Notes under the pieces: model-generated | Told to the model about the DNA's origin: nothing | The model's input: the letters and a program-made list of their open reading frames with translations, nothing else | Databases searched by the model: none | Shown: positions 11,503-39,635 of the stretch, one piece after another | Layout: the number at the start of each line of letters is the position of its first letter | Numbering within the stretch: position 1 is the stretch's first letter | Translations under genes and position numbers: made by a program | IMG/VR virus record: IMGVR_UViG_3300020416_000001 | Span: 1-64,000 of that record | DNA: 64,000 bases | Reading direction: 5' to 3' (one strand) | Source of the DNA: a virus

Positions 11503-12999
11503 ATGAAATTTGATAATATCTGTATTGTCGGTGGTGGCAGTGCAGGGTGGATGACCGCTAGTGTACTAGCAAAACATTTTGGTGATGCAAAAGAAATTGT
11601 GTTGATCGAGTCACCTACGAAACCTAGAATCGGTGTAGGAGAAGCGACAACGCAATTTTTTAATACATTCGTACGGTATCTGGGTCTGGAGGATTCAGAC
11701 TGGATGCCTAAGTGTGATGCAACATATAAGCACAGCGTACGATTCGATAACTTTAATCCCAATGGTTCATTCCATTACCCATTTGGGGATATGAATGGAC
11801 CTGCATCGATTGCGGATTACTATACTTGGAGAAAGGGGAAACCCATCCACAGTATGACGTTTGGTATGATATACTCGGATGTAATACGGAGCGTAGAAAA
11901 GGGTAAAATCATCCCTGATCTCCTCAAATTTCGAGTTGGTTACCACTTCGATGCAATCTTATTCGCAGACTACCTTAAACACAACTATGCAATTCCGAGA
12001 GGCGTTAAACTCATTGAAGATACAGTCCACGAAGTTAAATCCTGCGTGGATGGGGTTAGCGGAGTTCGTCTTTCTAGTGGCGATTGGCACAACTATGACC
12101 TTTTTATAGATTGCACAGGGTTCGATGCTCTACTTACTAATGCAGTAGATAGTGAGTGGGAATCGTGGAATGATGAATTGGTATGCGACAGAGCAATAAC
12201 GACGAGATTAGAATATACAGATAAACAGGAACAACTGGTTGCACATACAAACTGCACAGGAATGAGCAGTGGATGGGTATGGAAAGCACCAACGTGGTCA
12301 AGAATTGGAACGGGTTATGTCTATTCATCCCGTCATCAAGACGAAGAGAGTGCACTAAAAGAGTTTCAGAAACACCTTGTAGATAGTAAAGGTATTTGTC
12401 CAAATTGTGTAGATAAACAGTATTACAAGAAACTAGCATTCCCTACAGGTGTAAGGAAGGAGATATGGAAAAAGAATGTGGTGTCTATAGGACTAGCAGC
12501 AGGTTTTATTGAACCTTTGGAATCAGGTGGGTTGTTCTCAGTTCACGAGTTCCTATTCAATTTAATCGGTGTGCTTCCTAAGAATAGAGATAACTACAAT
12601 GGTTTTATAAGAGAACAGTTCAACTGGGGTTCTAAGAGAAGACTGAAATCATTCAAGGATTTTGTATTGGCACACTATTGTTTGAGTCCTCGTGATGATA
12701 CACCATTCTGGAAACACTACAATCAAATGAATTTTGAGTCGGAGTTCCCTGATGTATTGACACAGAGATTCGAACAGATTCAAAATCTAAACTATTTGTC
12801 AGAGGGTGCTGTATATTTGCTAGGAGGATACGAATATGATATAATACCAGATAGGTTTGATATACTTGCAAATGAGCAAGGATACCAGATTCCTGAGTTT
12901 AACGATATGTTTGAGGATGCTCTAAAAAGGCAAGATCCAGACTATCCTACACCCTTAGAGTATTATCAATCTACCCTATATAAGACAGAAGATTCTTAG
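11503..12999 (+). CDS. flavin-dependent halogenase (tryptophan-halogenase family), copy 1
   Basis: A 498-aa protein. The family uses FADH2, O2 and halide to make hypohalous acid, which a conserved Lys passes to an aromatic substrate. Visible motifs: FAD-binding GGGSAGW (10-16); GVGEAT (44-49); DATYK with the presumed catalytic Lys at residue 76; WVWKAP at about 258-263, the family WxWxIP motif with Ile replaced by Ala; and GFIEPLESGG at about 334-343, carrying the presumed catalytic Glu. Length fits the family (about 500-540). Related to marine viral VirX1-type enzymes by pattern. It abuts a second halogenase two bases downstream. Substrate unknown. Confidence 0.9.
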   Translation: MKFDNICIVGGGSAGWMTASVLAKHFGDAKEIVLIESPTKPRIGVGEATTQFFNTFVRYLGLEDSDWMPKCDATYKHSVRFDNFNPNGSFHYPFGDMNGPASIADYYTWRKGKPIHSMTFGMIYSDVIRSVEKGKIIPDLLKFRVGYHFDAILFADYLKHNYAIPRGVKLIEDTVHEVKSCVDGVSGVRLSSGDWHNYDLFIDCTGFDALLTNAVDSEWESWNDELVCDRAITTRLEYTDKQEQLVAHTNCTGMSSGWVWKAPTWSRIGTGYVYSSRHQDEESALKEFQKHLVDSKGICPNCVDKQYYKKLAFPTGVRKEIWKKNVVSIGLAAGFIEPLESGGLFSVHEFLFNLIGVLPKNRDNYNGFIREQFNWGSKRRLKSFKDFVLAHYCLSPRDDTPFWKHYNQMNFESEFPDVLTQRFEQIQNLNYLSEGAVYLLGGYEYDIIPDRFDILANEQGYQIPEFNDMFEDALKRQDPDYPTPLEYYQSTLYKTEDS

Positions 13000-13001
13000 T
13001 T

Positions 13002-14657
13002 ATGCAAGTTAACAATGTTGTAGTGGTTGGCGGTGGGTCATCTGGATGGATGACAGCAGCAGCACTATTGAAATTATGCCCTTGGATTAGTGTTGTACTG
13101 GTCGAATCCAAAAAGCATAAACCAGTCGGAGTAGGAGAATCAACGCTCGGACAGTTTAACAAATATTTGCGTGCACTCGGTCTGAAAGATGAAGAGTGGA
13201 TGCCCAAAGTAGGAGCAACATTCAAGAACAGTATTCAGTTCACAGACTTCCGTGAAATTGGATCTAAGTTCCAGTATCCATTTGGACCTGCAGATTTATA
13301 TAATTGCAAGAACGATATTCAAGATTTCTTCGATCTTCAAAGATTATATCCTGATGAGTTCCCACCAGAATTGTTTGCGAAGTATTACTTGGCAGGCAAT
13401 ACTTGTATGGCAGAGCATAACAAGATGTGGGGCAATAAGGATGGTAGGATCAGAGATTTTGATTTTGCTAGTGATACTGCATACCATATTGATGCTGACA
13501 GATTTGCAGAATTCTTAAAGAATGACATATGTTATCCGTTTGCTTCACAGGATAGATTCACACATATCATTGGCGATGTGCGAGGTATGGTGAAGGATGT
13601 GATGGCAGGTGGATCACCCGCTCAGAGCAACAGAATCATCAAACAACTTGCAGTTAAACTATCAGAAGATAAGAAAACGGTAGGAGTACAGGGAGATCTA
13701 TTCATTGACTGCACAGGATTCAAGGGTGCACTCATTGAAGAAATGATGTCAGTAAGACATATCAGTTTCGAGAAGTATCTACCAAACAATAAAGCATTCT
13801 TTGCTCGCATTCCTTATTACTCACAGAGTGCAAGAAAGAAACTGATGCACAACGTGACAGACTGTCGTGGTGCTAATAGTGGTTGGATGTGGACTATTCC
13901 TCTGTGGGATAGGATCGGAGTTGGTTATTGTTGGTCTGATCGGTTCGCAATGGAAACCGAAGCAAGACAAGAATTCGAAATGTGGATTGATAATGAATTC
14001 CACTTAGAACCTGATGAGTATGAAATCAAGACTATTGATATTAAGCACGGATATAGAGAAAAAGCGTGGGAGTTGAATTGTGTAGCAATCGGGATGTCAT
14101 ATGGATTCATTGAACCCTTGGAATCCACAGGTCTATTGACAACACACGAGAATATCCTTAGACTGGTTGATGTCTTAAATCGACGTCAGGGTTATGTGTC
14201 AGGTATTGAGCGACAATGGTTCAATTACGCTGCACAACGTGAAGTCATTGGATTCAGTCATTTTGTAGCAATGCACTATGCATTAAGCAAGAGAACTGAC
14301 AATCCATATTGGAGACACGCATCACAACGATGTGAGTATATGCTCGAACAGTTCGATGGCAACATCAAAACTAATGATGAGTATGAGAGGATGGGAGATA
14401 TTCTGGATCTTGGAAGACCACTCAGAGCAAACATTGCAGGTATGAACTTCATCGCTGCAGGTATGGGATTGAGATTGGGAACTAGATTCAATGGATATGG
14501 AGACGTCGAAGAACTCACACATATTGGAAATGAGCGTCTAGACTATATCAAAGATGTGGAGGAATTCATCAAGTCAGATGAAGTGCCTACACATTATGAA
14601 TTCTTATTGAAACACATTTATGGTGGTGAAGACAATGTTGAATGCCCTGAGGAATAA
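13002..14657 (+). CDS. flavin-dependent halogenase (tryptophan-halogenase family), copy 2
   Basis: A 551-aa protein, a divergent paralogue of its neighbour. Motifs are complete: GGGSSGW (10-16), GVGEST (43-48), GATFK with Lys75, WMWTIP (295-300, exact family motif) and GFIEPLESTG (about 368-377). FAD and substrate sites therefore look intact. It is about 50 residues longer than copy 1, with an insertion around residues 100-150. A free partner flavin reductase is not visible in the window, so reduced flavin would come from the host. Both copies lie in the late, fibre-containing transcription unit. Confidence 0.9.
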   Translation: MQVNNVVVVGGGSSGWMTAAALLKLCPWISVVLVESKKHKPVGVGESTLGQFNKYLRALGLKDEEWMPKVGATFKNSIQFTDFREIGSKFQYPFGPADLYNCKNDIQDFFDLQRLYPDEFPPELFAKYYLAGNTCMAEHNKMWGNKDGRIRDFDFASDTAYHIDADRFAEFLKNDICYPFASQDRFTHIIGDVRGMVKDVMAGGSPAQSNRIIKQLAVKLSEDKKTVGVQGDLFIDCTGFKGALIEEMMSVRHISFEKYLPNNKAFFARIPYYSQSARKKLMHNVTDCRGANSGWMWTIPLWDRIGVGYCWSDRFAMETEARQEFEMWIDNEFHLEPDEYEIKTIDIKHGYREKAWELNCVAIGMSYGFIEPLESTGLLTTHENILRLVDVLNRRQGYVSGIERQWFNYAAQREVIGFSHFVAMHYALSKRTDNPYWRHASQRCEYMLEQFDGNIKTNDEYERMGDILDLGRPLRANIAGMNFIAAGMGLRLGTRFNGYGDVEELTHIGNERLDYIKDVEEFIKSDEVPTHYEFLLKHIYGGEDNVECPEE

Positions 14658-21765: not shown

Positions 21766-21825
21766 AGGACAATTCAAGAACTGACCACCAGACACCCCCT
21801 CTGGTGGTTTTTTATGTGCTATAAT
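21766..21825 (+). promoter_or_regulatory. promoter with degenerate dyad box, helicase gene
   Basis: A weak copy of the dyad element (AGGACA, ten bases, TGACCA; 21766-21787) is followed 32 bases later by TATAAT (21820-21825). A terminator hairpin lies between them. The arrangement is almost base-for-base like that at 23590. Confidence 0.5.
21784..21813 (+). terminator. rho-independent terminator
   Basis: ACCACCAGA pairs with TCTGGTGGT around a short C-rich loop and is followed by six T's. It ends the small-gene run upstream of the helicase. Confidence 0.85.
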
Positions 21826-21848: not shown

Positions 21849-23120
21849 ATGACAGTCAATCTACGCAAGCACCAACAGAGAGCAGTTGACGCGATGAAGC
21901 GTCACACAAAAGGTCAGATCATCGTGCCTACAGGCGGTGGTAAAACAATGTGTATGATTTATGACTGTCTCCGCCAGTTGAACAGCAACAGCAACAGCAC
22001 AATCATTGTTGTAGCACCTCGTATCCTACTCGCTAATCAGTTGAGTGAGGAGTTTCTACAGTTTATGAAGGCAGATTGGGTATATCCTTATCACGTCCAC
22101 TCAGGCGAGACTCATCACGAGTCAGGTACAAAACCAGATAAACTTGCTCAGTTCATCAAGGACAACAAAGCAAAGAATGCAGTTGCTACTCACATCATCT
22201 TTACAACATATCACTCATTGAGAAGAGTTGTTGAAGCAGTTACACGTCATCAACTTGAGATCGATGTAGCATATTTTGATGAAGCACACAACAGCGTAAC
22301 ACGCAATTTCTTTGATTCAACCGAGGACATCAGTTATATTTCAAAGAGAACATACTTTTTTACTGCTACCCCTCGTATCCACAACAGAGGTAGGCACAAC
22401 AGAGGTATGAACAACACTAAGGTGTATGGTCAGATCATTCAACAAGTACCCGCACCAGAATTGATTGAATCAGGTTCTATCATCCCACCTACTATTGTGC
22501 CATTTGAGCAAGATATTGAGCGTGTAAAGAAAATGAGTTGGGATACTGACGCTCAAACAGTCCTAGATGTACTTGACACACTTGACAGTAAGAATGCTCA
22601 GAAGGTGCTATGTGCCGTCCCTAGCAGTAAGATTCTAGGTAATATGCTAGGTCAGACCAACTTGCTTGATGAGTTGAAGAAACGCGGTTACGATGTTCTA
22701 CACGTTACCAGTAAATTCGGTGCATATGTCAATGACAAGAAGGTAAATCGTGAGAAGTTTTTCGAGACAATGGATTCATTCGGACGTGACGATGACAGAA
22801 AATTCATCATCTTTCACTATTCTATTTTGAGTGAGGGCATCAACGTCCACGGATTGACCCATACTATTCTATTGAGACAACTTCAAACCGTCGAAATGGC
22901 ACAGACTATTGGTAGAGTCATCCGCCTACATAAAGAGGACGCAAAGCGTATTCGCTCAGGCGAAATCGTAGCAGGTAAACTTGATATGTATCGTAAACCA
23001 ACTGGTTACGTTACAGTTCCTACCTATACGAACTATGGTAAGCACATCGCTAAGCGTTTACAAAACGTTGTAGATGCGATTTTCGTACACGGAATTCATC
23101 CCGAGTCACTAGTTGCATAA
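21849..23120 (+). CDS. SF2 DEAH-box helicase (UvsW-like)
   Basis: A 423-aa protein. The N-terminus goes straight into LRKHQQRAVDAM (Q-motif region), Walker A PTGGGKT at 27-33, DEAH at 144-147, TATP (motif III) at 172-175 and QTIGRVIR (motif VI) at 352-359. UvsW of T4 is longer (587 aa) with an extra N-terminal domain that is absent here, so this may be a compact relative or a type III restriction-type helicase. A GGGGAG ribosome site precedes ATG and a promoter lies just upstream. Probable role: branch migration or remodelling of replication and recombination intermediates. Confidence 0.85.
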   Translation: MTVNLRKHQQRAVDAMKRHTKGQIIVPTGGGKTMCMIYDCLRQLNSNSNSTIIVVAPRILLANQLSEEFLQFMKADWVYPYHVHSGETHHESGTKPDKLAQFIKDNKAKNAVATHIIFTTYHSLRRVVEAVTRHQLEIDVAYFDEAHNSVTRNFFDSTEDISYISKRTYFFTATPRIHNRGRHNRGMNNTKVYGQIIQQVPAPELIESGSIIPPTIVPFEQDIERVKKMSWDTDAQTVLDVLDTLDSKNAQKVLCAVPSSKILGNMLGQTNLLDELKKRGYDVLHVTSKFGAYVNDKKVNREKFFETMDSFGRDDDRKFIIFHYSILSEGINVHGLTHTILLRQLQTVEMAQTIGRVIRLHKEDAKRIRSGEIVAGKLDMYRKPTGYVTVPTYTNYGKHIAKRLQNVVDAIFVHGIHPESLVA

Positions 23121-23589: not shown

Positions 23590-23647
23590 AGGACAATTAA
23601 ATAACTGTACCACTAGACCCCCACAGGGGTCTTTTTTATGGCATTAT
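23590..23647 (+). promoter_or_regulatory. promoter with degenerate dyad box, upstream of candidate ncRNA
   Basis: AGGACA, ten bases, TGTACC (23590-23611) is followed at exactly 30 bases by CATTAT (23642-23647), a weak -10. The bases after it (ATAAGAGTAA) match those after the -10 at 24603. Predicted start is about 23654, the first base of the ncRNA helix. Confidence 0.55.
23615..23637 (+). terminator. rho-independent terminator
   Basis: AGACCCC pairs with GGGGTCT around CACA and runs into six T's. It ends transcription of the gene at 23156. Confidence 0.85.
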
Positions 23648-23653
23648 ATAAGA

Positions 23654-23817
23654 GTAAGGGAAACAACTTAGACGGTTGCTATACCCGAAACTCTCATTTG
23701 TGGGGTTATCCTACTAAGATATGAGTCAGTAGGGGTACAGGTGTAAGCGATTCCTATAGCGTAAATTTGGACTCTTGAGTGAAACTCATTACAGTAGTCC
23801 CGCGTTGTTCCCCTTAC
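23654..23817 (+). ncRNA. candidate structured non-coding RNA, about 164 nt
   Basis: No convincing protein is encoded here, yet the two ends pair over 14 positions with one mismatch: 23654-23667 (GTAAGGGAAACAAC) and 23804-23817 (GTTGTTCCCCTTAC). Within it, GCTATA (23678-23683) pairs with TATAGC (23755-23760), CCTACT (23710) with AGTAGG (23728), and GGACT (23769) with AGTCC (23795) enclosing a TGAGT-GAA-ACTCA hairpin. The first paired base is where transcription should begin from the promoter at 23642. Possible roles include a 6S-like RNA or an unnamed phage RNA. No Rfam family is recognised. Confidence 0.55.
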
Positions 23818-23827
23818 AACACCCACT

Positions 23828-23885
23828 ATGACAGTTGATAAACTGCACACCTATCTCACACAGGAAGCAGAATCAACGTTATAGT
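23828..23885 (+). promoter_or_regulatory. dyad-box promoter
   Basis: ATGACA-GTT, spacer, AAC-TGCACA (23828-23849), then 30 bases, then TATAGT (23880-23885). Predicted start near 23892, the first base of the leader hairpin. Confidence 0.6.
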
Positions 23886-23891
23886 ATAAAT

Positions 23892-23944
23892 GTTGAGAGC
23901 GTTGCTCACATTCACAATCGCTGAGGGATACCCTCGCTCTCAAC
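23892..23944 (+). other. 5' leader stem-loop with perfect 10-bp arms
   Basis: GTTGAGAGCG (23892-23901) and CGCTCTCAAC (23935-23944) are perfect inverted repeats around a 33-base loop at the very start of the predicted transcript. The first coding ATG (23971) is 26 bases downstream. It could protect the 5' end from decay or control translation. Confidence 0.6.
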
Positions 23945-23970
23945 ACATAATTCACACACAACTTAATACG

Positions 23971-24132
23971 ATGACCAGAGTACAAATCACATTACTAGTT
24001 GAAGTTGACACCGAGGACGAAGTTAATTGCCCTGACGGTGACCCTATCACACAAAACGTAGTAGTCAACGCAGTTGACAATGATTTCTTTCTTGACCCTG
24101 TAACTGTATTAGATGCGAGGATAGTAGATTGA
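23971..24132 (+). CDS. small acidic hypothetical protein
   Basis: A 53-aa protein starting at ATG 23971 (MTRVQITLLVEVDTEDEV). A longer in-frame start at 23890 would run through the leader hairpin and is not favoured. Beta-strand pattern, acidic. It overlaps the next gene by four bases. It heads the early small-gene region. Confidence 0.6.
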   Translation: MTRVQITLLVEVDTEDEVNCPDGDPITQNVVVNAVDNDFFLDPVTVLDARIVD

Positions 24133-24302
24133 TAAACCTAAAACTCACAAGAGAACAGTTCGAAGAGATTTATGATGCAGTCAGAGATCTACCTGACATT
24201 TATAAATCAGAACTAAAAGAATCAGGCGATGAACCCGACGCTGCACACATCGACCTATTTGATGCAGTCAACATAATGAAGGAGATTTATGAATCATACT
24301 AA
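24129..24302 (+). CDS. small hypothetical protein, TTG start
   Basis: A 57-aa frame (residues INLKLTREQFEEIYDAV...) with a GAGG ribosome site 8 bases before a TTG overlapping the previous stop. There is no ATG until near its end, but the clear amphipathic sequence and overlaps on both sides (the next ATG is at 24289) argue that it is real. LTREQFEEIYDAV resembles the SRRELGLLHYY segment of the next protein, so the two may be distant paralogues. Confidence 0.55.
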   Translation: MINLKLTREQFEEIYDAVRDLPDIYKSELKESGDEPDAAHIDLFDAVNIMKEIYESY

Positions 24303-24612
24303 CAACAAAAAAGAATTTACAATCGCTCTATCTCGTAGAGAACTAGGACTATTACATTACTATACTAGAGGACTAGTTGCAAGAATTGACAGCGACGTAA
24401 CAGACTGGGGTTCTAGTTGTACTGGTCACGATACTATAGAGCACGATGACTATGGTAAGGACGCGATTCTAGGATTATTCAAACAAGTTAAACCACTTGT
24501 TGAATCTAACTATGGCACACAGTTCGAAGACTGGCAACAAATGACTCTCAAGGTCAATCCACAAACTGTCACACCCGAACCACTAGACCTTGCACCATCC
24601 TCTATAATATAA
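24289..24612 (+). CDS. hypothetical protein with promoter box inside its 3' end
   Basis: A 107-aa protein beginning MNHTNNKKEFTIALSRRELGLL, mainly helical up to about residue 75, then a Pro/Thr-rich tail. The dyad box (24551) and the -10 at 24603 lie within its last 21 codons, so its C-terminus is constrained by the downstream promoter. Function unknown. Confidence 0.65.
   Translation: MNHTNNKKEFTIALSRRELGLLHYYTRGLVARIDSDVTDWGSSCTGHDTIEHDDYGKDAILGLFKQVKPLVESNYGTQFEDWQQMTLKVNPQTVTPEPLDLAPSSII
24551..24608 (+). promoter_or_regulatory. dyad-box promoter inside coding sequence
   Basis: Degenerate left half AGGTCA, ten bases, perfect right half TGTCAC (24567-24572), then 30 bases, TATAAT (24603-24608). 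Drives the DUF7417-like gene at 24632. Confidence 0.65.
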
Positions 24613-24631
24613 GAGTAAAGCAAACAACTCA

Positions 24632-24820
24632 ATGATTATTATGACACCTGATCTTGATTTGCTACTTTCATATGAAAATGGCACTATAACTGAAGATGAT
24701 TTCTTTTTCCTCTTTCAACAAATATATGACACTAAGGCATATCAATGGTTGCAGGGGCATTACGGTAGAACTGTTCAACTATTACTAGAGGAGGGATTGA
24801 TTTATGAGTCGTCCAAATAG
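24632..24820 (+). CDS. DUF7417-like small protein
   Basis: A 62-aa protein; an ATG at 24641 (MTPDLDLLLSYENGT) is also possible. LLSYENGTITEDDF followed by WLQGHYGRTVQLLLEEG is the standard signature of a small protein family found in many phages (DUF7417, about 60-65 aa), of unknown function. It overlaps the next gene. Confidence 0.7.
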   Translation: MIIMTPDLDLLLSYENGTITEDDFFFLFQQIYDTKAYQWLQGHYGRTVQLLLEEGLIYESSK

Positions 24821-25010
24821 AGATTTAACTTTTGATGAACTGGACGCACTTTGGGAATTGACTCAAGTCGCATCTCATCAACAATTAAATCAACTTGAGA
24901 AGACTTTTACAGTCAGGTTTCGAGTTATTCGCAAGAAACTAGACAGTATGAGCACAACTCAAAGAAACACATACTTGAAAAAAGTAAACATCCCTGACCC
25001 ACAATGGTAA
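24804..25010 (+). CDS. small helical hypothetical protein
   Basis: A 68-aa, basic, helix-rich protein (DELDALWELTQVASHQQLNQL). Starts within the end of the previous gene and its end overlaps the next. Function unknown. Confidence 0.6.
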   Translation: MSRPNRDLTFDELDALWELTQVASHQQLNQLEKTFTVRFRVIRKKLDSMSTTQRNTYLKKVNIPDPQW

Positions 25011-25291
25011 TTAGAAAAATGAATCAAAACTCAGATCTTGAAGGTGCTAACCTTATCCGCACAATGTCACAAAGTGAACTAGACACATTCAAAGAGGTAT
25101 TTGTAGAGCGTTACATTGAAAATTGTACTGTTGAGCAATTAGAGCAAATTGCACGAGATTCAATGATTGACTACGCTAACAATGTATCAGAGAATGATTT
25201 GATCGATGAATTGATCGGATACGGTGGCGAGGAATTTGTAGATGAGTGCCTAGAGGAGTCTAGGGAACTCGTTGCACTTCGCAACAAATAA
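25004..25291 (+). CDS. small acidic hypothetical protein
   Basis: A 95-aa protein; an ATG at 25019 (MNQNSDLEG) could be the real start. Two predicted helices flank a central ERYIENCTVEQLEQIARDSM segment, then an acidic C-terminal half (LIDELIGYGGEEFVDECLEE). The stop lies two bases before the next dyad box. Function unknown. Confidence 0.6.
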   Translation: MVIRKMNQNSDLEGANLIRTMSQSELDTFKEVFVERYIENCTVEQLEQIARDSMIDYANNVSENDLIDELIGYGGEEFVDECLEESRELVALRNK

Positions 25292-25292
25292 T

Positions 25293-25350
25293 ATGACAGT
25301 TTGACAAGTGTCACACACATACACTATTATGGAGCATACACCCCTATAAT
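25293..25350 (+). promoter_or_regulatory. dyad-box promoter
   Basis: ATGACA-GTT and TGTCAC (25293-25314), 30 bases, TATAAT (25345-25350). Followed by AATTACATAAGCAAC. Drives the nuclease-like gene at 25376. Confidence 0.8.
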
Positions 25351-25375
25351 AATTACATAAGCAACAGACAAACAA

Positions 25376-25879
25376 ATGCAAGTGACCACACCCGAAGCAA
25401 GATACCAACAACTATTTGAAGCAATGTATGAACTTTGCGATCAACAGGGATGGGGAGACCCATTCAGTTACGCGAGGTCTAGAGAGATTCATCTAGCAGG
25501 TATTTTAGGTCACTCAGTTGCTGACGATTATAGCGGTGCGGATGCATTTGACGCTGATGGAAACCCAGTAGAGTATAAATCTACTATAGGTAAGAAACTG
25601 ACTGCTACATACAACGGCATTTCAGTTCAAGATACTTGGGACAATCAAGTCAAGTATCTTAAAGAGGAAAAAATCGGCAAGTACAAAGATCATTTTTTCG
25701 CACGCTATTCAAATGGTCAAGTTGTTGAGGTCTGGCAAATGTCAGGCGATGACGTCTTGAAATTGCTTTTACCTAGTCTAAAAAAGCAATTCTATTCTAC
25801 AAAAGTTAGAAAAGATCCCAGACTAGGTTATACTATCCCATTCAAACAGATTCAAAACTATGGACAACGAATTAAGTAG
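25376..25879 (+). CDS. putative PD-(D/E)XK endonuclease
   Basis: A 167-aa protein. REIHLAGILGHSVADD carries a candidate acidic residue (E38), and SGADAFDADGNPVEYKST gives D56 and the E66-x-K68 pair in the order and spacing of restriction-type nucleases, where D, E and K bind Mg and attack DNA. No separate recognition domain or methyltransferase partner is visible, so it could degrade host DNA or act in early replication. The next gene overlaps it by 20 bases. The call is motif-based. Confidence 0.6.
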   Translation: MQVTTPEARYQQLFEAMYELCDQQGWGDPFSYARSREIHLAGILGHSVADDYSGADAFDADGNPVEYKSTIGKKLTATYNGISVQDTWDNQVKYLKEEKIGKYKDHFFARYSNGQVVEVWQMSGDDVLKLLLPSLKKQFYSTKVRKDPRLGYTIPFKQIQNYGQRIK

Positions 25880-26090
25880 AATCGAAGAGTATGACTCAGA
25901 GATTAATCCTAAGATGCAGGAAGCAATCGACGTGCTAGGAGAGCACTATATGAAGCAAATTGCAGGATTAATTGAGAATAATCGATTTGATGATGCTGAC
26001 GCAATTTATAAAGAATTTGTTGTAAATGGATGTGACCCCGAAGATGGTAACTATGAGTGGATATTTTTGGATGATATGTTGGACAGTTGA
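25860..26090 (+). CDS. small acidic hypothetical protein
   Basis: A 76-aa helical protein (MDNELSRIEEYDSEINPKM). It begins inside the nuclease-like gene and ends inside the next promoter box, whose left half (from 26080) lies in its last codons. Function unknown. Confidence 0.6.
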   Translation: MDNELSRIEEYDSEINPKMQEAIDVLGEHYMKQIAGLIENNRFDDADAIYKEFVVNGCDPEDGNYEWIFLDDMLDS

Positions 26091-26137
26091 ATAACTGGCA
26101 CACAACTACACTATTCACATACAACACACACTATAAT
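26080..26137 (+). promoter_or_regulatory. dyad-box promoter
   Basis: TGGACA-GTT and AAC-TGGCAC (26080-26101), 30 bases, TATAAT (26132-26137). Drives 26161. Confidence 0.8.
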
Positions 26138-26160
26138 AATAATATACAAAACAAAACACA

Positions 26161-26409
26161 ATGAACTCAAAGGCAATTTACACAACACCAGTAAACAGAA
26201 TCAAACAGAAAGTTTTATTCAACGATGGTTTAAGCAGATTGACCCATATATGTGCTAACTGGGCGGAGTATGTTCAAGAGTTAGCAGAGTGGGGTATCAC
26301 AACAAACAACACTCTAGCAGGTGTGAACTTAAATAATCTATCCGAGTGGGATATTCAGTATCTTGACATCTTTATCAAGAATCAGAACGGTTACGAGGAG
26401 GAGGTTTAA
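26161..26409 (+). CDS. small hypothetical protein
   Basis: An 82-aa protein, mixed helix with Trp-rich NWAEYVQELAEWGI. Single-gene start of a four-gene unit behind the promoter at 26132. Function unknown. Confidence 0.6.
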   Translation: MNSKAIYTTPVNRIKQKVLFNDGLSRLTHICANWAEYVQELAEWGITTNNTLAGVNLNNLSEWDIQYLDIFIKNQNGYEEEV

Positions 26410-26411
26410 TA

Positions 26412-26633
26412 ATGTCACAACAGCACATTTTCGCAGACCCTACAGAACTTGAAGCAAGATATGGTTTCAGTTACGAAGCATTAGAGCAATTTGAAGCAGT
26501 ATTTCGCTATCTTGATGAGGAAGCAGACCCTAGTCTAGTTGATGAGATTAAAACAAGTGATGTAGGTTTAGAGCAATTAGTTAACTTTGCAACTGAGTTA
26601 AGAGTATTCGATGGAGTCAATTTAGATGCTTAA
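26412..26633 (+). CDS. small acidic hypothetical protein
   Basis: A 73-aa, Glu/Asp-rich, helical protein, separated from the preceding gene by two bases, with a GAGGAGG ribosome site in that gene's last codons. Its stop overlaps the next gene. Function unknown. Confidence 0.6.
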   Translation: MSQQHIFADPTELEARYGFSYEALEQFEAVFRYLDEEADPSLVDEIKTSDVGLEQLVNFATELRVFDGVNLDA

Positions 26634-26790
26634 TATTCCTATTACTTTCGATCAGTCCTATCAAATGATAAAATTATGGGACACTCTCAGAGATATGGAT
26701 TTCGAACTGACTGACGAGCAAACAGCAGTATTTGAACTCATTCAAACAGGCGATTATCTAGTTAAGGAGCATCCAAAGAATGAAAACTGA
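26626..26790 (+). CDS. 54-aa hypothetical protein
   Basis: Frame from ATG 26626 overlapping the previous gene by 8 bases, with LNIPITFDQSYQMIKLWDTL and a helical rest. Its own end overlaps the next ATG by 11 bases. Overlap on both sides supports translation. Function unknown. Confidence 0.55.
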   Translation: MLNIPITFDQSYQMIKLWDTLRDMDFELTDEQTAVFELIQTGDYLVKEHPKNEN

Positions 26791-26890
26791 TTTACTTCTT
26801 AAAATCTACATTGCTGCTAAAAAGGAAGCGAAGAAGAAAAAAGCAATCAAACCAATTAGAACACATTACAACGCACATTCATTTGGTTGA
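26780..26890 (+). CDS. 36-aa basic peptide
   Basis: Very small frame from ATG 26780: LLLKIYIAAKKEAKKKKAIK then an HYNAHSFG tail. Strongly basic, possibly nucleic acid-binding. Located between overlapping gene ends and a dyad box. Call uncertain because of size. Confidence 0.45.
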   Translation: MKTDLLLKIYIAAKKEAKKKKAIKPIRTHYNAHSFG

Positions 26891-26891
26891 T

Positions 26892-26949
26892 GTGACAGTC
26901 ACATAAGTGGCACACAGTTTTACCATATGCCACACAGAGTGACTATAAT
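26892..26949 (+). promoter_or_regulatory. dyad-box promoter
   Basis: GTGACA and TGGCAC (26892-26913), 30 bases, TATAAT (26944-26949). Drives 26974. Confidence 0.85.
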
Positions 26950-26973
26950 GTTAATATACAAAAGAAAACACAA

Positions 26974-27165
26974 ATGGCACAATCACACAGAACACCCACA
27001 AAAGGACTAAACATCGATTTGACTATTGGTCAGTATCAACACCTTTATGATCTCGTTTGCGATGCATATGACCGAGGTTATGACCAGAGACCTAGAATCG
27101 ATACTCAAACTTTTGATAATATGTTTGATGCTATTTGTAACGCAAAGTCAACTTACCTTAAATAA
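26974..27165 (+). CDS. small hypothetical protein
   Basis: A 63-aa protein (GLNIDLTIGQYQHLYDLV) of helical, His/Asp-rich character, first gene after the promoter at 26944. Function unknown. Confidence 0.6.
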   Translation: MAQSHRTPTKGLNIDLTIGQYQHLYDLVCDAYDRGYDQRPRIDTQTFDNMFDAICNAKSTYLK

Positions 27166-27171
27166 TAAATT

Positions 27172-27333
27172 ATGAGATATTCAATCCACGTCCCAACCGC
27201 ACCATTTGAAAATACAAGTTTTGTAAACTTGGATGACTGTTGGAGTCTTTGCTATGATCTAGCACAAGAATATGGATATGCTGAGGTTAGATATGGAAAT
27301 TGTCTAATGGGTTCTTATTGTGACAGAGATTAA
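27172..27333 (+). CDS. 53-aa hypothetical protein
   Basis: Frame from ATG 27172 starting six bases after the previous stop: beta pattern MRYSIHVPTAPF, Cys-containing helix DDCWSLCYDLAQEYG, tail YGNCLMGSYCDRD with two further Cys. Its last codons lie inside the next dyad box. Function unknown. Confidence 0.55.
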   Translation: MRYSIHVPTAPFENTSFVNLDDCWSLCYDLAQEYGYAEVRYGNCLMGSYCDRD

Positions 27334-27377
27334 ACTGTCACACAATTATCCTATTTAATCAACATAACCTTTATAAT
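27320..27377 (+). promoter_or_regulatory. dyad-box promoter
   Basis: GTGACA and AAC-TGTCAC (27320-27341), 30 bases, TATAAT (27372-27377), then ATTACTATACACAGG. Drives 27401. Confidence 0.85.
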
Positions 27378-27400
27378 ATTACTATACACAGGAAAACAAA

Positions 27401-27604
27401 ATGAATTACGATCACGAATTTTATGTAACTCAAAAGTGCACAACATACAAATACTATACTGTTGTTGCTGCAACTATGGAGGAAGCAAAAGAGAAAATCG
27501 AGGATGATGATATGGATTTACAGGACTGGGAAGAATTTGACTATAAAACAGTTGAAATCGAAGAGCAAGAGATACCAGTTCAACAACTGGCACTCGCCTT
27601 ATAG
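27401..27604 (+). CDS. small acidic hypothetical protein
   Basis: A 67-aa protein, EFYVTQKCTTYKYYTVVAA then acidic EEAKEKIEDDDMDLQDW. Resembles small beta-alpha proteins of many phages (the 'Y-TVVAATMEEA' pattern) of unknown role. A dyad box lies in its last codons (27572). Confidence 0.6.
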   Translation: MNYDHEFYVTQKCTTYKYYTVVAATMEEAKEKIEDDDMDLQDWEEFDYKTVEIEEQEIPVQQLALAL

Positions 27605-27630
27605 ACTTCACACCCATTACCCTCTATAAT
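27572..27630 (+). promoter_or_regulatory. dyad-box promoter inside coding sequence
   Basis: ATACCA-GTT and AAC-TGGCAC (27572-27593), 31 bases, TATAAT (27625-27630). The box is within the last 11 codons of the previous gene. Drives 27654. Confidence 0.75.
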
Positions 27631-27653
27631 ATTACTATACACAGGAAAACAAA

Positions 27654-27917
27654 ATGCACAACTTTCAAGAATTCTCAGACTACATCGAAATGTTCTATTG
27701 CCCTGAGCACCCTGACTGTTTATATCCTATCGAAGGATTAACTAAGGGCGAGATCGCAATCGCAATACTTAACTATCTTGACCTATGTGCAGATAATGAG
27801 AATATTAACTGGGGCGATGGCGATTCACTTGATCGCGAGCGTGTAAGGGATATTATTAAGGACAATAGAGCAAAGGACTATAGATCAGTTTTGAGTATCA
27901 TAGGAGTTCAAAAGTGA
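27654..27917 (+). CDS. small hypothetical protein
   Basis: An 87-aa acidic protein, EFSDYIEMFYCPEHPDCLYP then helical GEIAIAILNYLDLC. GTGA overlap with the next gene. Function unknown. Confidence 0.6.
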   Translation: MHNFQEFSDYIEMFYCPEHPDCLYPIEGLTKGEIAIAILNYLDLCADNENINWGDGDSLDRERVRDIIKDNRAKDYRSVLSIIGVQK

Positions 27918-28126
27918 AAAATTACAACACATACGAGACATTTTCAGAAATAAGTGTGGGCGATACAGTTGCCTACACTAATGAGAATGGCAAGAGAATC
28001 ATAGGGCAAGTTATTATAAGATGGGGCAAATATTGTGACCCCCAACTTGAAATATGCAACGATGACTCAATTAACTACTACCCAGTAAAGGATTACACTA
28101 AATGCAAAGTTTTGGAAAGGTTCTAG
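27914..28126 (+). CDS. small SH3-like hypothetical protein, GTG start
   Basis: A 70-aa protein from GTG 27914. ISVGDTVAYTNENGKRIIGQVII is the pattern of a small SH3-type barrel (turn G-D-x-V, then strand with G-x-V), followed by a charged C-terminus. Possible binding domain; ligand unknown. Confidence 0.6.
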   Translation: MKNYNTYETFSEISVGDTVAYTNENGKRIIGQVIIRWGKYCDPQLEICNDDSINYYPVKDYTKCKVLERF

Positions 28127-28184
28127 TGCCAGTTTTATTAGTGGCACACACTATAATGATTTTACAGCAATCATCCTCTATAAT
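28126..28184 (+). promoter_or_regulatory. dyad-box promoter
   Basis: GTGCCA and TGGCAC, perfect inverted arms (28126-28147), 31 bases, TATAAT (28179-28184), then ATTAGTATAAG. A second TATAAT at 28152 is only four bases from the box. Drives 28208. Confidence 0.85.
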
Positions 28185-28207
28185 ATTAGTATAAGACAAA
28201 AAACACT

Positions 28208-28585
28208 ATGACTACACAAACACCAGTTAAACTAGACACATATCAAAAATTACTAGTTGACAGAATTGACACATACGGAACAGGGGACTGGAAAAATAAT
28301 GTCTCAATACATCATAAGCACGATTCTAGTATGTTCTCAAATATTTTGATCGGTCGCGAAGTTGTTGCTAAGGTAGTTTATGAAGTGCCATCCGAGGATA
28401 TATCCGCCGATGATTATAGAGCGATTCACATCGATAAGACCAAAAAAGCGAAAGTTTCTTATATCGCATTTGGCAATGATATTTGGGCATATCGTAGTCC
28501 AACACAAGTTTCAAGATATAGAAACATTTTGAAAAAACTCGGTTATCTCATCATTCAAGTAGATAACAAAGTTATTCAATACTAG
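28208..28585 (+). CDS. hypothetical protein
   Basis: A 125-aa protein, helical N-terminus (YQKLLVDRIDTYG), beta middle (VVAKVVYEVPS), then AKVSYIAFGNDIWAYRSP and a C-terminal ILKKLGYLIIQVDNKVI. Alone behind its promoter. No family recognised. Confidence 0.65.
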   Translation: MTTQTPVKLDTYQKLLVDRIDTYGTGDWKNNVSIHHKHDSSMFSNILIGREVVAKVVYEVPSEDISADDYRAIHIDKTKKAKVSYIAFGNDIWAYRSPTQVSRYRNILKKLGYLIIQVDNKVIQY

Positions 28586-28597
28586 TCAAGCGATGGT

Positions 28598-28655
28598 GTG
28601 ACAGTTTAACTAGTGTCACATCATCACACCATACTCACACATTACCCACTATAAT
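28598..28655 (+). promoter_or_regulatory. dyad-box promoter
   Basis: GTGACA-GTT and TGTCAC (28598-28619), 30 bases, TATAAT (28650-28655). Drives 28683. Confidence 0.85.
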
Positions 28656-28682
28656 AAGAATATACAAACGAGGTTAAAACAA

Positions 28683-28850
28683 ATGTCACAAGAAAAAACT
28701 TTCACTTACACTTTCACTCAAGCACAAGATGACGTGCTAGTTCAAATGATAAGATATTTCAATGAGTTGGGAGTTGGTGGCGATATGAACGAAGATGATT
28801 TTGATTCACTTGTTGATGTCGTTTGCAATCATCCTAACTCAGTTGCTTAA
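28683..28850 (+). CDS. 55-aa hypothetical protein
   Basis: Frame from ATG 28683 with MSQEKTFTYTFTQAQDDVLV then acidic GGDMNEDDFDSLVDVV. The pattern 'strand, then helix, then (D/E)-rich loop with DSLVDVV' is common to small phage proteins of unknown function. First of at least four tiny genes in one unit. Confidence 0.6.
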   Translation: MSQEKTFTYTFTQAQDDVLVQMIRYFNELGVGGDMNEDDFDSLVDVVCNHPNSVA

Positions 28851-28854
28851 GACT

Positions 28855-29028
28855 ATGAACATTTTTAAGTACACAATCCACACCCCTAAGTTATTCAACA
28901 GCGAAGTATTCACGGATGACTTAGACAGAGCGAAGCAATTAGCAACAGAATTTGGTCAAGACTACGATTTTAGTTTTGTTGTTGATAATGCTACAAATAA
29001 AACTATTTTCGAGGGAGTTCGATGGTAA
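28855..29028 (+). CDS. 57-aa hypothetical protein
   Basis: From ATG 28855 (MNIFKYTIHTPKLFNSEVF), four bases after the previous stop. Beta strand, helix (DDLDRAKQLATEFG), strand FSFVVDNATNKTIFEG. A longer upstream start would overlap the gene before. Function unknown. Confidence 0.55.
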   Translation: MNIFKYTIHTPKLFNSEVFTDDLDRAKQLATEFGQDYDFSFVVDNATNKTIFEGVRW

Positions 29029-29099
29029 CACTTATCTCAATACTTTTAATAGTATTCATTCTTTTAATTATTGTCAACTATTACAATCCACACAACTAA
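29022..29099 (+). CDS. 25-aa single-pass membrane peptide
   Basis: Frame from ATG 29022 overlapping the previous stop: MVTLISILLIVFILLIIVNY followed by NPHN, an uninterrupted transmembrane segment. Too small to rule out chance, but the overlap start and full hydrophobicity argue for a real small membrane peptide. Confidence 0.45.
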   Translation: MVTLISILLIVFILLIIVNYYNPHN

Positions 29100-29100
29100 A

Positions 29101-29250
29101 ATGATTTTCATTACTACATCCGTCCCTACTTACGATTTTCCTAGTAGTCCTATTCTTTGGTTAGGGTTCTTAGGTATCCTAGTAGCAGTATTTACAGTTT
29201 ACACAGTAAATAAAGCATATTTCAATAGTCCACTTAATCAAGATAAATGA
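29101..29250 (+). CDS. 49-aa single-pass membrane protein
   Basis: From ATG 29101, one base after the previous stop. Short polar N-terminus, transmembrane segment ILWLGFLGILVAVFTVYTV, then a charged tail (NKAYFNSPLNQDK). Probably inserted in the host inner membrane early in infection. Confidence 0.55.
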   Translation: MIFITTSVPTYDFPSSPILWLGFLGILVAVFTVYTVNKAYFNSPLNQDK

Positions 29251-29309
29251 GACAGTTAAGACTCATCAATTTTAGATTAACACAATGACCTAGGACACCC
29301 CCCAAATAT

Positions 29310-29367
29310 GTGCCAATTTTATTACTGTCACACTCTAACAACTAAAGAGTACAATTTGCTCTATAAT
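29310..29367 (+). promoter_or_regulatory. dyad-box promoter
   Basis: GTGCCA and AC-TGTCAC (29310-29331), 30 bases, TATAAT (29362-29367). Drives 29390. The 59 bases before the box (29251-29309) hold no gene. Confidence 0.85.
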
Positions 29368-29389
29368 AAGTATAACAACACAGATAACG

Positions 29390-29518
29390 ATGACAAACGA
29401 ACAACGCTACAAAAATTTCCTAAAGTGGGAAGCAATGATACAGAGACGCGAAGCACGTCTTGCCAACAAAGCAGAAAAATTTCTTAATGCACATTTTCAA
29501 ATCGTGGAGGTCAAGTAA
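29390..29518 (+). CDS. 42-aa basic helical peptide
   Basis: From ATG 29390: MTNEQRYKNFLKWEAMIQRR then EARLANKAEKFLNAHF, a single amphipathic basic helix. Could bind nucleic acid or a host protein; no family recognised. Confidence 0.5.
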   Translation: MTNEQRYKNFLKWEAMIQRREARLANKAEKFLNAHFQIVEVK

Positions 29519-29677
29519 ATGAGTTGCCTACAAAATGAAATCTTAATGGAAAATCTTTTTGAAGAAGAGTATGCAGCAATGCAAGAGAGTGGTCTAGCGG
29601 ATACACTCACACCCGAAGCATTACAGGAGCATTGCGAGTTTATTGCAAAAGAGCGATTTTGGGACTTAGCAGAGTGA
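29519..29677 (+). CDS. 52-aa acidic hypothetical protein
   Basis: From ATG 29519, directly after the previous stop, with a GGAGGT site upstream (29506). Helical and Glu-rich (EILMENLFEEEYAAMQE). Its last codons overlap the next dyad box. Function unknown. Confidence 0.55.
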   Translation: MSCLQNEILMENLFEEEYAAMQESGLADTLTPEALQEHCEFIAKERFWDLAE

Positions 29678-29731
29678 CAGTTATGAAAGTGGCACAACTT
29701 GCCACTATTCTCACTCTATCCCCTCTATAAT
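29674..29731 (+). promoter_or_regulatory. dyad-box promoter
   Basis: GTGACA-GTT and TGGCAC (29674-29695), 30 bases, TATAAT (29726-29731), then AATTACATAAGCAAC as at 25345. Drives 29762. Confidence 0.85.
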
Positions 29732-29761
29732 AATTACATAAGCAACACAGGAGTAACACCG

Positions 29762-29956
29762 ATGGCATACAGAGCAACTAAGCAAGAGGTTCTAACACAG
29801 TTCAGATATAACTGGAAAGTCGCTACAATGCAGAATCCTAGACTTAAGGGCGATGTAGTTGCCAAACGTGAAGACTGGAATAATTTTGTTGATGCATTGA
29901 ATAAAGATGGATATGTATCAGACAATCAAGCATATAACTGGACAAATCCATTCTAA
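29762..29956 (+). CDS. small basic hypothetical protein
   Basis: A 64-aa protein from ATG 29762 with MAYRATKQEVLTQFRYNW. An in-frame start at 29699 would include the promoter, so it is not used. Helical then RLKGDVVAKREDWNNFVDAL, a small DNA- or protein-binding-like unit; family unknown. Confidence 0.6.
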   Translation: MAYRATKQEVLTQFRYNWKVATMQNPRLKGDVVAKREDWNNFVDALNKDGYVSDNQAYNWTNPF

Positions 29957-29961
29957 GAACT

Positions 29962-30249
29962 ATGAACGACATTTTCACTAACACACAACTTTTATTAAAC
30001 AATCTCACAATCCGCCCACAAATGACTAAAGATCAATTTATTGAAGAAGTTTATGAAATAGCATTTGGCGATAATGCTATTAATCGCGATTTCGCATTTG
30101 ATGAAGTAATAGAGAAACTTCGCGAGTTTTCAGACAATGCTCTCATATTTGAAGAGAGCGGGTTTACAGAGAGCGAACTAGAGGAACTAAGCAACAAAAG
30201 ATTTTCTAATCTTGAATCAACAGCACCCGATTATGGAGTAGGCAAATGA
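29962..30249 (+). CDS. small acidic hypothetical protein
   Basis: A 95-aa helical protein (MTKDQFIEEVYEIAFG, then FDEVIEKLREFSD). Its stop overlaps the next start (ATGA). Function unknown. Confidence 0.6.
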   Translation: MNDIFTNTQLLLNNLTIRPQMTKDQFIEEVYEIAFGDNAINRDFAFDEVIEKLREFSDNALIFEESGFTESELEELSNKRFSNLESTAPDYGVGK

Positions 30250-30371
30250 GAGTGGTTTTTACTATCATCGTTTTTTTACTAGGATTAAATCTTATTGTTG
30301 ATCTTAGCAATTCTAACCTGATCGAACTACTAAACGAGAGACAGCAGCAGATTGAAAACGTCACTAAGTGA
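30246..30371 (+). CDS. 41-aa single-pass membrane protein
   Basis: From ATG 30246: a transmembrane segment VVFTIIVFLLGLNLIV then a coiled-coil-like tail LIELLNERQQQIENV. The third tiny membrane protein in the early region. ATGA-coupled to the gene before. Its stop sits inside the next dyad box. Confidence 0.55.
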   Translation: MRVVFTIIVFLLGLNLIVDLSNSNLIELLNERQQQIENVTK

Positions 30372-30425
30372 CAGTTGACAAAGTGGCACACACAGGCGAG
30401 CATCCGCCTCGGTATCCACTATAAT
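30368..30425 (+). promoter_or_regulatory. dyad-box promoter
   Basis: GTGACA-GTT and TGGCAC (30368-30389), 30 bases, TATAAT (30420-30425), then ATTAGTATAAGCAAC. Drives 30457. Last copy of the array. Confidence 0.85.
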
Positions 30426-30456: not shown

Positions 30457-30786
30457 ATGCGTAAGATCGAAACACAAATGAATCAAGCAATCAGAGCACA
30501 AAAGAACTGGGCAGGTTCTAATACCACAGTTTTTACTTCTGATAATGGTCTTGAGTCAACTGTTTACTTACACGGCAATCACATCGCAACATATTTTCAC
30601 GCTGAGCGTAAAATCCAATTATTCGATGGCGGTTGGCAGTCTAATACAACTAAGTCACGTTTGAATGCATTACTTGACGAATTTGCATACGGCACTTATG
30701 TATTTCAAAAAAACTGGTCTTGGTTTATCGCTAGAAACTTCAACCCAAATCACAAATCTGATTTTGTAAGTGGTGTTACCATATAG
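30457..30786 (+). CDS. conserved small phage protein (MRKIE type)
   Basis: A 109-aa protein. MRKIETQMNQAIRAQKNW, then VYLHGNHIATYFH and TKSRLNALLDEF is a pattern common to many phage small proteins of unknown function. It is the last gene behind the dyad-box promoters. Its stop is immediately followed by a consensus -35 hexamer. Confidence 0.7.
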   Translation: MRKIETQMNQAIRAQKNWAGSNTTVFTSDNGLESTVYLHGNHIATYFHAERKIQLFDGGWQSNTTKSRLNALLDEFAYGTYVFQKNWSWFIARNFNPNHKSDFVSGVTI

Positions 30787-30815
30787 TTGACATAAGTCAC
30801 TATATAGACTATAAT
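30787..30815 (+). promoter_or_regulatory. perfect consensus sigma-70 promoter
   Basis: TTGACA (30787-30792), exactly 17 bases, TATAAT (30810-30815). Both hexamers are perfect. It is unlike the dyad-box promoters, which lack a -35, and is followed at once by a terminator-like hairpin. Confidence 0.85.
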
Positions 30816-30818
30816 ACA

Positions 30819-30844
30819 GGGGACTAAATCAGTCCTCTTTTTTT
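30819..30844 (+). terminator. terminator hairpin directly downstream of the consensus promoter
   Basis: GGGGACT pairs with AGTCCTC (one G-T pair) around AAATC, followed by seven T's that end one base before ATG 30845. It lies at the very start of the transcript from the promoter at 30787. Confidence 0.75.
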
Positions 30845-32580: not shown

Positions 32581-33000
32581 ATGACCAAAAAGATCGATTC
32601 GTACCGTGAAGAGTACAAGGAGTGGTTAGGGAGAGAATGGAAAGGACAGAAAGGAGGAGGATGCTTCAAACTCCTCTATGATTATGGTATTGCTACTGGG
32701 TATCACACTTGTAAGGAGGATTACTCATTCAATCACCGATCATTCCTCAAGAACATCTGGGAGGACGAAGGATGGACTGCCATCAAGGTTTCCGAGATGG
32801 GCGATGAGTTCGGTATCGAGGATCTGGAGAAGTATGACATATTGCTGATGAACTTAGAGAGTAATCGCCTCAATCACGGTGCTTTGTATCTTGGAGAGGG
32901 ATTCGTATTACACCATAAGGCATTTGACGTATCACGGATAGAAAAAGTAAAACCCTATATAGGGCAGACACTATACGTGATACGAAAGAATGTCTCATAG
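32581..33000 (+). CDS. NlpC/P60-like phage hydrolase
   Basis: A 139-aa protein of the NlpC/P60 type found at phage tail tips (lambda gpK-like). GGGCFKLLYDYG gives the catalytic Cys28; NHGALYLGEGFVLHH supplies His99 and His111 or 112. These enzymes cleave peptide bonds of peptidoglycan. The compact size and position (not within the tail-tip cluster) leave it open whether it is structural or lytic. Confidence 0.8.
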   Translation: MTKKIDSYREEYKEWLGREWKGQKGGGCFKLLYDYGIATGYHTCKEDYSFNHRSFLKNIWEDEGWTAIKVSEMGDEFGIEDLEKYDILLMNLESNRLNHGALYLGEGFVLHHKAFDVSRIEKVKPYIGQTLYVIRKNVS

Positions 33001-33157
33001 GTATATACTTCCCATAGAGGAGGATGAAGAAAGTGGAGAACTTCTGCTCAATCTACCAGACGAGTTACTTGACGAAATGGGATGGTACTTTGGTGATGAG
33101 TTAGAATATTCCATTGAAGACGATCAACTTACACTTCGAAAGTTCAAAGAACCTTAG
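32990..33157 (+). CDS. AbrB/SpoVT-like small protein
   Basis: A 55-aa frame from ATG 32990 overlapping the previous stop. LPDELLDEMGWYFGDELEYSI followed by DDQLTLRK has the swapped-hairpin pattern of SpoVT/AbrB-type DNA-binding subunits. It could be an antitoxin-like or regulatory protein. Its target is unknown. Confidence 0.6.
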   Translation: MSHRYILPIEEDEESGELLLNLPDELLDEMGWYFGDELEYSIEDDQLTLRKFKEP

Positions 33158-39321: not shown

Positions 39322-39468
39322 ATGGCAAAGGCAAAAGTCGGTCTCGGTGGAGGCGTCTTTATCCAAGCAATTCCAAAGAGCACCCGTCAAGGAAACGGGA
39401 AAAACACAAAATACTCGGCAACATCTAGGAATGGTGCTAAGAAAAAATATCGAGGACAAGGTAAATGA
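39322..39468 (+). CDS. 48-aa basic conserved protein
   Basis: Frame from ATG 39322: MAKAKVGLGGGVFIQAIPKS, then a Lys/Arg/Gly-rich, disordered tail (KYSATSRNGAKKKYRGQGK). Its stop overlaps the next start (ATGA). I recognise this type of very small basic protein from T4-like cyanophage structural regions, with no function assigned. Confidence 0.65.
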   Translation: MAKAKVGLGGGVFIQAIPKSTRQGNGKNTKYSATSRNGAKKKYRGQGK

Positions 39469-39635
39469 GACCAGAGACCAGACACGCAATGGAGATGCTA
39501 TGGGGGGCAAAATGGAACTTGCCAACTGCAGCACTCCACTGTGGTCTAACAAACAAAGAAATGAAAATCACTTTCAATGAATATTGTGCCCTTCACCCCC
39601 CAACGGAGGAATATGAGTTCGAAAGGTCTAAATAA
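39465..39635 (+). CDS. 56-aa conserved small protein
   Basis: Frame from ATG 39465: MRPETRHAMEMLWGAKWNLP, LHCGLTNKEMKITFNEYCAL, PPTEEYEFERSK. Coupled by ATGA to the gene before. The sequence type is familiar from T4-like cyanophages next to gp25. Function unknown. Confidence 0.7.
   Translation: MRPETRHAMEMLWGAKWNLPTAALHCGLTNKEMKITFNEYCALHPPTEEYEFERSK
39627..39634 (+). promoter_or_regulatory. late promoter TCTAAATA
   Basis: TCTAAATA overlaps the end of the 56-aa gene, 60 bases before the ATG at 39694. Likely drives the baseplate block starting there. Confidence 0.5.

Follow-up and report, generated by a model that had tools for sequence, protein, structure and literature searches.

Dyads and promoters at the locus

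The stretch analysed here (the window; 64,000 nucleotides, positions 1 to 64,000) is part of a 171,756-bp IMG/VR virus record (IMGVR_UViG_3300020416_000001), the gene matches of which are to T4-like cyanophages of Synechococcus and Prochlorococcus; no close relative was found by megablast against phage records. Downstream of a UvsW-like helicase gene (21849-23120) and ahead of the baseplate genes (baseplate wedge 40208-42292), the window holds a block of small genes, all on the + strand, in which an imperfect palindrome (the dyad) recurs at a nearly constant distance upstream of -10 hexamers. Within the block, groups of genes are preceded by ten strong and three weak dyads, and the helicase gene by a further weak one (Table 1), in agreement with a first-pass annotation of the sequence that had listed 13 copies in 7 kb and a weak one at 21766. 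The 10 strong dyads, none of which has more than 2 mismatches to GTGMCASTTNNNNAASTGKCAC, span positions 25293-30389, and all are followed by an exact TATAAT, at 30 bp for eight sites and at 31 bp for two (27572 and 28126); the weak dyads at 23590, 23828 and 24551 keep the 30-bp geometry. The distances given in the annotation (mostly 30, with 31 in two copies and 32 in the weak helicase copy) were thereby reproduced from the site coordinates. Start codons in the small-gene block mostly lie about 20-30 bases downstream of the -10. When the degenerate 22-bp pattern was searched on both strands with up to 3 mismatches, 21 matches were obtained (shuffle mean 0.32, maximum 3), 20 of which corresponded to the 10 strong sites.

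Table 1. Dyads, associated -10 hexamers and related features in the window (spacing in bp from the right end of the dyad to the -10 hexamer)
Feature	Position	Strand	-10 hexamer	Spacing	Gene or remark
Weak dyad	21766-21787	+	TATAAT 21820-21825	32	Precedes UvsW-like helicase gene (21849-23120)
Intrinsic-terminator-like hairpin	21783-21809				In spacer of helicase dyad
Weak dyad	23590-23611	+	CATTAT at 23642	30	Terminator-like hairpin 23615-23632 inside spacer
Weak dyad	23828-23849	+	TATAGT at 23880	30	
Weak dyad	24551-24572	+	TATAAT 24603-24608	30	
Strong dyad	25293-25314	+	TATAAT 25345-25350	30	Gene 25376-25879
Strong dyad	26080-26101	+	TATAAT 26132-26137	30	Gene 26161-26409
Strong dyad	26892-26913	+	TATAAT 26944-26949	30	Gene 26974-27165
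Strong dyad	27320-27341	+	TATAAT 27372-27377	30	Gene 27401-27604
Strong dyad	27572-27593	+	TATAAT 27625-27630	31	Gene 27654-27917
Strong dyad	28126-28147	+	TATAAT 28179-28184	31	Gene 28208-28585
Strong dyad	28598-28619	+	TATAAT 28650-28655	30	Gene 28683-28850
Strong dyad	29310-29331	+	TATAAT 29362-29367	30	Gene 29390-29518
Strong dyad	29674-29695	+	TATAAT 29726-29731	30	Next gene starts near 29763
Strong dyad	30368-30389	+	TATAAT 30420-30425	30	Gene 30457-30786 (Pfam Kyano_Gp96)
Consensus host-like promoter, dyad-free (contrast)	30787-30815	+			TTGACA-17-TATAAT, directly 3' of the cluster

Taking TATAAT as -12 to -7 places the 22-bp core of the dyad at -64 to -43 and its centre near -53, as had been proposed. 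The -10 of the dyad promoters is nearly perfect and the -35 is weak. The earlier statement that there is no recognisable -35 held for the copies in the window, none of which has TTGACA within 1 mismatch, but not for the pooled sites, which favour a weak -35-like TTGAAA at -34 to -29. Among 62 dyad promoters with exact TATAAT in dyad-rich genomes, none carried TTGACA and 7 came within 1 mismatch of it, and 48 TTGACA promoters in these genomes were without a dyad. The 30-bp distance from dyad to promoter corresponds to three helical turns, and in a subclass the dyad is located at 41 bp, one helical turn further, often together with TTGACA. Terminator hairpins were present inside 13 of 185 pooled spacers (and two spacers of the window), the length of the spacer being fixed though its sequence is free. 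Fixed length, free spacer sequence, the 41-bp subclass and the separation of dyad from TTGACA are the traces to be expected of an activator that works from a single face of the helix.

Recurrence and anatomy of the dyad site

Distances from 20 to 40 between dyad (up to 2 mismatches) and TATAAT (up to 1 mismatch) were counted over 15 cyanophage genomes, giving 63 sites at a distance of 30, 15 sites at 31, and at most 9 at each other distance. A peak at 30 clearly argues against a dyad that is equally frequent away from promoters, the outcome named beforehand as speaking against a regulatory role. The dyad 30 bp before TATAAT is present in most of the cultured T4-like cyanophages tested, and the profile search of sister phages suggested in the annotation found it to recur: a joint profile (dyad plus -10), trained on matches from the scored genomes themselves and for which shuffled genomes are the fair comparison, produced 17-32 matches above 12 bits in the ten richest genomes and 0-1 in the shuffles. 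At this threshold Syn9 had 11 matches (0 in the shuffle) and S-MbCM6 had 9, while S-WAM1 (6), S-CREM1 (4) and S-SM2 (2) were dyad-poor. P-TIM40 carries a run of dyads with 10 dyad/-10 combinations, and Syn9 a degenerate set.

A search of IMG/VR for the dyad followed by TATAAT after 27-34 bp matched at least 120 stretches, and among the matches listed, spacings of 29, 30 and 31 occurred 11, 83 and 44 times, respectively; the reversed pattern, with the same composition, had no match in 2.9 million IMG/VR contigs. Of the metagenomic contigs that carry the element, nearly all are similar to T4-like cyanophages; two contigs from one metagenome (L045 and L064), with dyads at 29-34 bp, show little or no such similarity. 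The element occurs widely beyond this phage. Dyads are also grouped behind the helicase gene, in the corresponding syntenic block, in S-SSM7, P-TIM40 and P-SSM2. Single copies were located before the helicase gene itself (S-SSM7 and S-PM2), before a 700-750-amino-acid 'peptidase' gene (P-SSM2, S-SSM7, P-HM2 and the present phage, in which this further copy lies at 111605 of the record, outside the window), before cobS (P-SSM2 and S-SSM7) and before DUF6267-type genes (several phages). Some dyad promoters point to no evident reading frame or are directed against the gene block, and a 41-bp subclass precedes a conserved GAGATTCGGGGTAG-like start; both groups (P-SSM2 66337-66613, 55758 and 56568; contigs L037, L038 and L044) could possibly give rise to non-coding transcripts.

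The 22-bp core described in the annotation was recovered in the 10 strong copies, but its length fell short: the site comprises 24 bp, TGTGMCASTTNNNNAASTGKCACA, because the core is flanked by a T on its left (128 of 185 sites) and by an A on its right (98% of the spacing-30 sites). Positions left free in the search were nonetheless A or C in 94% and C or G in 95% of the IMG/VR sites. Both orientations of the dyad occur, and no fixed polarity was seen. The inner S positions of the half-sites (7 and 16), which had been treated as free, are anti-correlated between the halves, with 58 G.G, 45 C.C, 21 G-C and 3 C-G pairs (Fisher p = 1.4e-14; G.G or C.C in 103 of 127, in counts uncorrected for phage relatedness), and the isolates deviate in the same direction (p = 0.012). 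Perfect palindromes numbered 4, compared to 20 expected on re-dealing the halves (likewise uncorrected), and the mean hairpin energy was -5.2 kcal/mol relative to -6.9 kcal/mol for re-dealt sites, with none of 200 re-deals as weak. This avoidance of perfect complementarity makes recognition of the DNA by a protein more plausible than an RNA hairpin. The linked S positions fit a protein that would read DNA under selection against hairpin formation, or an asymmetric complex.

Reading of the dyad and its alternatives

We consider it likely that the dyad is the site of a putative dimeric activator which, bound around -53, would bring host RNA polymerase to promoters whose -10 is good and whose -35 is poor; most likely, the dyad marks the place where a protein would activate a shared set of infection genes. 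A dimeric-protein site controlling a set of promoters, as suggested in the first-pass annotation, is the best-fitting reading because of the fixed spacing, the conservation across phages, the base-specific half-sites, the near-exclusion of a -35 and the absence from host genomes described below. In the proposed mechanism, the 24-bp imperfect dyad would be bound by a sequence-specific dimeric protein, which would contact the host sigma-70-type RNA polymerase directly and substitute for a good -35. The activator would thereby coordinate a regulon made up of the small-gene block that is flanked by the uvsW-like helicase gene and the baseplate genes; in many cyanophages, uvsW, cobS, the 'peptidase' genes and a DUF6267 gene would belong to it as well. 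Protein binding, activation and the early status of the genes are predictions from the sequence.

Several points weigh against such an activator. The dyad centre near -53 differs from the classical activator positions, -41.5 and -61.5, and TTGACA within 1 mismatch occurred in 20 of the 185 pooled sites compared to 3.5 expected. Genes transcribed at once would need a virion or host factor, since a protein made during infection would come too late. Furthermore, no gene family tracks the dyad in presence and absence over the 15 genomes, and the binding protein was not found in this way. The CobS-like AAA+ proteins, encoded in 15 of 15 genomes, have an N-terminal domain with a predicted helix-turn-helix and strands placed like a wing (predicted local distance difference test score of the core about 85), but as a candidate binder this domain is unsupported, as Foldseek gave no significant match to it and no link to the dyad was seen.

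Three smaller proteins were also rejected as binders: an AbrB/MazE-like protein of 55 amino acids (window 32990-33157), the gene of which is located near baseplate genes in cyanophages, is encoded in 11 of 15 genomes and absent from dyad-rich S-SSM7; a helix-turn-helix-like protein of 56 amino acids (39465-39635) is absent from S-SSM7 and P-TIM40; and a Cys-rich protein of 90 amino acids is absent from P-SSM2.

If the dyad were instead the operator of a phage repressor closing these promoters later in infection, the data on site, symmetry and conservation would fit equally well, and early genes are normally switched off. A protein at -64 to -43 would, however, leave the -10 and the start uncovered, a spacing held to 1 bp is what would be expected for polymerase contact, and a repressed strong promoter would keep the -35 that is mostly missing at dyad promoters, making a repressor unlikely.

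Equally improbable, in our judgement, is a host transcription factor exploited by the phage in the manner of PhoB at some S-PM2 and P-SSM2 promoters. Binding of host PhoB to S-PM2d promoters (PMC10976474) provides a precedent, and a host factor would explain use immediately on infection. Nevertheless, the dyad was not enriched across 151 picocyanobacterial-family genomes, with 4 sites at up to 1 mismatch relative to 8 for the reversed control (host factors with degenerate sites of their own lie outside this test); no cyanobacterial regulon was found among exact sites in 386 genomes, and no host promoter class in a genome scan for the dyad with a -10. Three exact dyads in larger cyanobacteria occupy equivalent intergenic positions at gene ends, the rest being scattered. 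As far as genome sequences can tell, the dyad does not belong to a host regulon.

A role of the dyad as a hairpin, in RNA or DNA, that would end transcription of the upstream gene or direct processing of its transcript is very improbable: dyads do sit at upstream gene ends and true terminator hairpins do occur in some spacers, but the halves are less complementary than random deals, particularly at positions 7/16, the dyad is not followed by a T run, 0 of 10 strong dyads scored as + strand terminators, and the fixed distance to the -10 would be left unexplained.

For the putative dimeric activator, the absence of the site from host genomes favours a protein supplied by the phage, which would be either virion-borne or immediate-early. 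Two of the four dyads in the 151 genomes are located in a low-GC (guanine plus cytosine) island (G377:C1, about 113.9-128.9 kb; the two island positions are L352 14042 and L353 8295) of a high-GC, PsbA-positive genome of the picocyanobacterial family. One is exact, with a tyrosine integrase gene 197 bp downstream of it; the other, 31 bp from TATAGT, points towards an operon that encodes a Type ISP restriction-modification protein. The island further holds AlpA and weakly Sak-like genes; related integrase loci are without the dyad, which leaves the island as a single example. It might be induced by the phage regulator. The composite scenario, in which an undescribed, phage-supplied activator (virion-borne or immediate-early) would read an obligately imperfect dyad throughout T4-like cyanophages, and some mobile islands of hosts would bear this composite site and have their restriction-modification operon and integrase switched on by the infecting phage, is unlikely.

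Some further features of the window were noted. The gene at 25376-25879, the first behind a strong dyad, encodes a conserved protein that contains a D...EYK motif and matches PvuII endonuclease weakly, below the cut-off, and its P-SSM2 homologue is likewise preceded by a dyad; the product could be a candidate nuclease for host DNA, and the quality of its structure model was poor. Leaders 3' of the -10s (for example, window 25351-25375) share an ATAA(G/C)CAA(A/C)CAAA-like stretch that is conserved across phages, and many genes behind dyad promoters have leaders without a regular ribosome-binding purine run. At the dyad-free TTGACA-17-TATAAT promoter (window 30787-30838) transcription is expected to start within a terminator hairpin by which the upstream cluster would be closed, a compact promoter-terminator overlap. 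Elsewhere, the window contains two adjoining tryptophan-halogenase-like genes (11503-14657) and one open frame of 6,920 codons (42311-63073). No RNA family was found in an Rfam search of the region.

Relation to known systems

In 2016, Doron et al. reportedly found early genes of Syn9 to be controlled by a novel regulatory element, obtained similar results for P-TIM40, and described the element as conserved among T4-like cyanophages and in metagenomes. The phage group is the same, and Syn9 and P-TIM40 both bear the dyad. We regard it as quite likely that the two elements are the same, so that the statement of the annotation that there is no published match is probably wrong; the element has probably been reported already and is thus of modest novelty. 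The present analysis adds the 24-bp anatomy, the rarity of perfect palindromes, the lack of the site in hosts and the one host island with two copies; to our knowledge, neither the avoidance rule nor the host controls formed part of the earlier description. T4-like cyanophages are among the most abundant viruses in the ocean and are without MotA/AsiA. The 24-bp site with its fixed 30-bp spacing offers a bait for the missing factor, lists a putative regulon in any cyanophage genome, and singles out uncharacterised small genes that would be used jointly in host takeover.

The late promoters of P2/P4 are activated by Ogr/Delta proteins, which bind a dyad near -55 in promoters without a proper -35 and contact the polymerase. 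The cyanophage promoters are alike in the position of the dyad and the lack of a proper -35, while the dyad of the Ogr/Delta system, TGT-N12-ACA, differs in sequence and arm spacing; the Ogr/Delta zinc-finger activator (PF04606) was found in 0 of 8 cyanophage records. T4 middle promoters (MotA/AsiA) likewise keep the -10 and have an activator site in place of the -35, but the MotA box is located near -30 and is not a dyad, whereas the centre of the cyanophage dyad is near -53. According to a 2010 review, motA and asi are missing from cyanomyoviruses, in which early and middle control is unclear (PMC2984593); the MotA domains PF09114 and PF09158 gave no match above cut-off in the same number of cyanophage records (8).

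The PeSL promoter-terminator cassettes of T4-like phages (Comeau 2014, named in PMC4503421), on which the hairpin explanation is modelled, are similar in their occurrence in small-gene shuffling regions, in having inverted repeats near promoters and in the terminators found in some spacers. The PeSL stem-loop is defined by a complementary stem and a T run, in contrast to the cyanophage dyad, the halves of which avoid perfect complementarity and which has no T run after it and is itself no terminator. Finally, NtcA and CRP sites are likewise palindromes upstream of sigma-70 promoters, but their spacing (GTA-N8-TAC and TGTGA-N6-TCACA, respectively) differs, as the annotation had pointed out, from that of the cyanophage dyad, in which the outer GTG and CAC are 16 bp apart.

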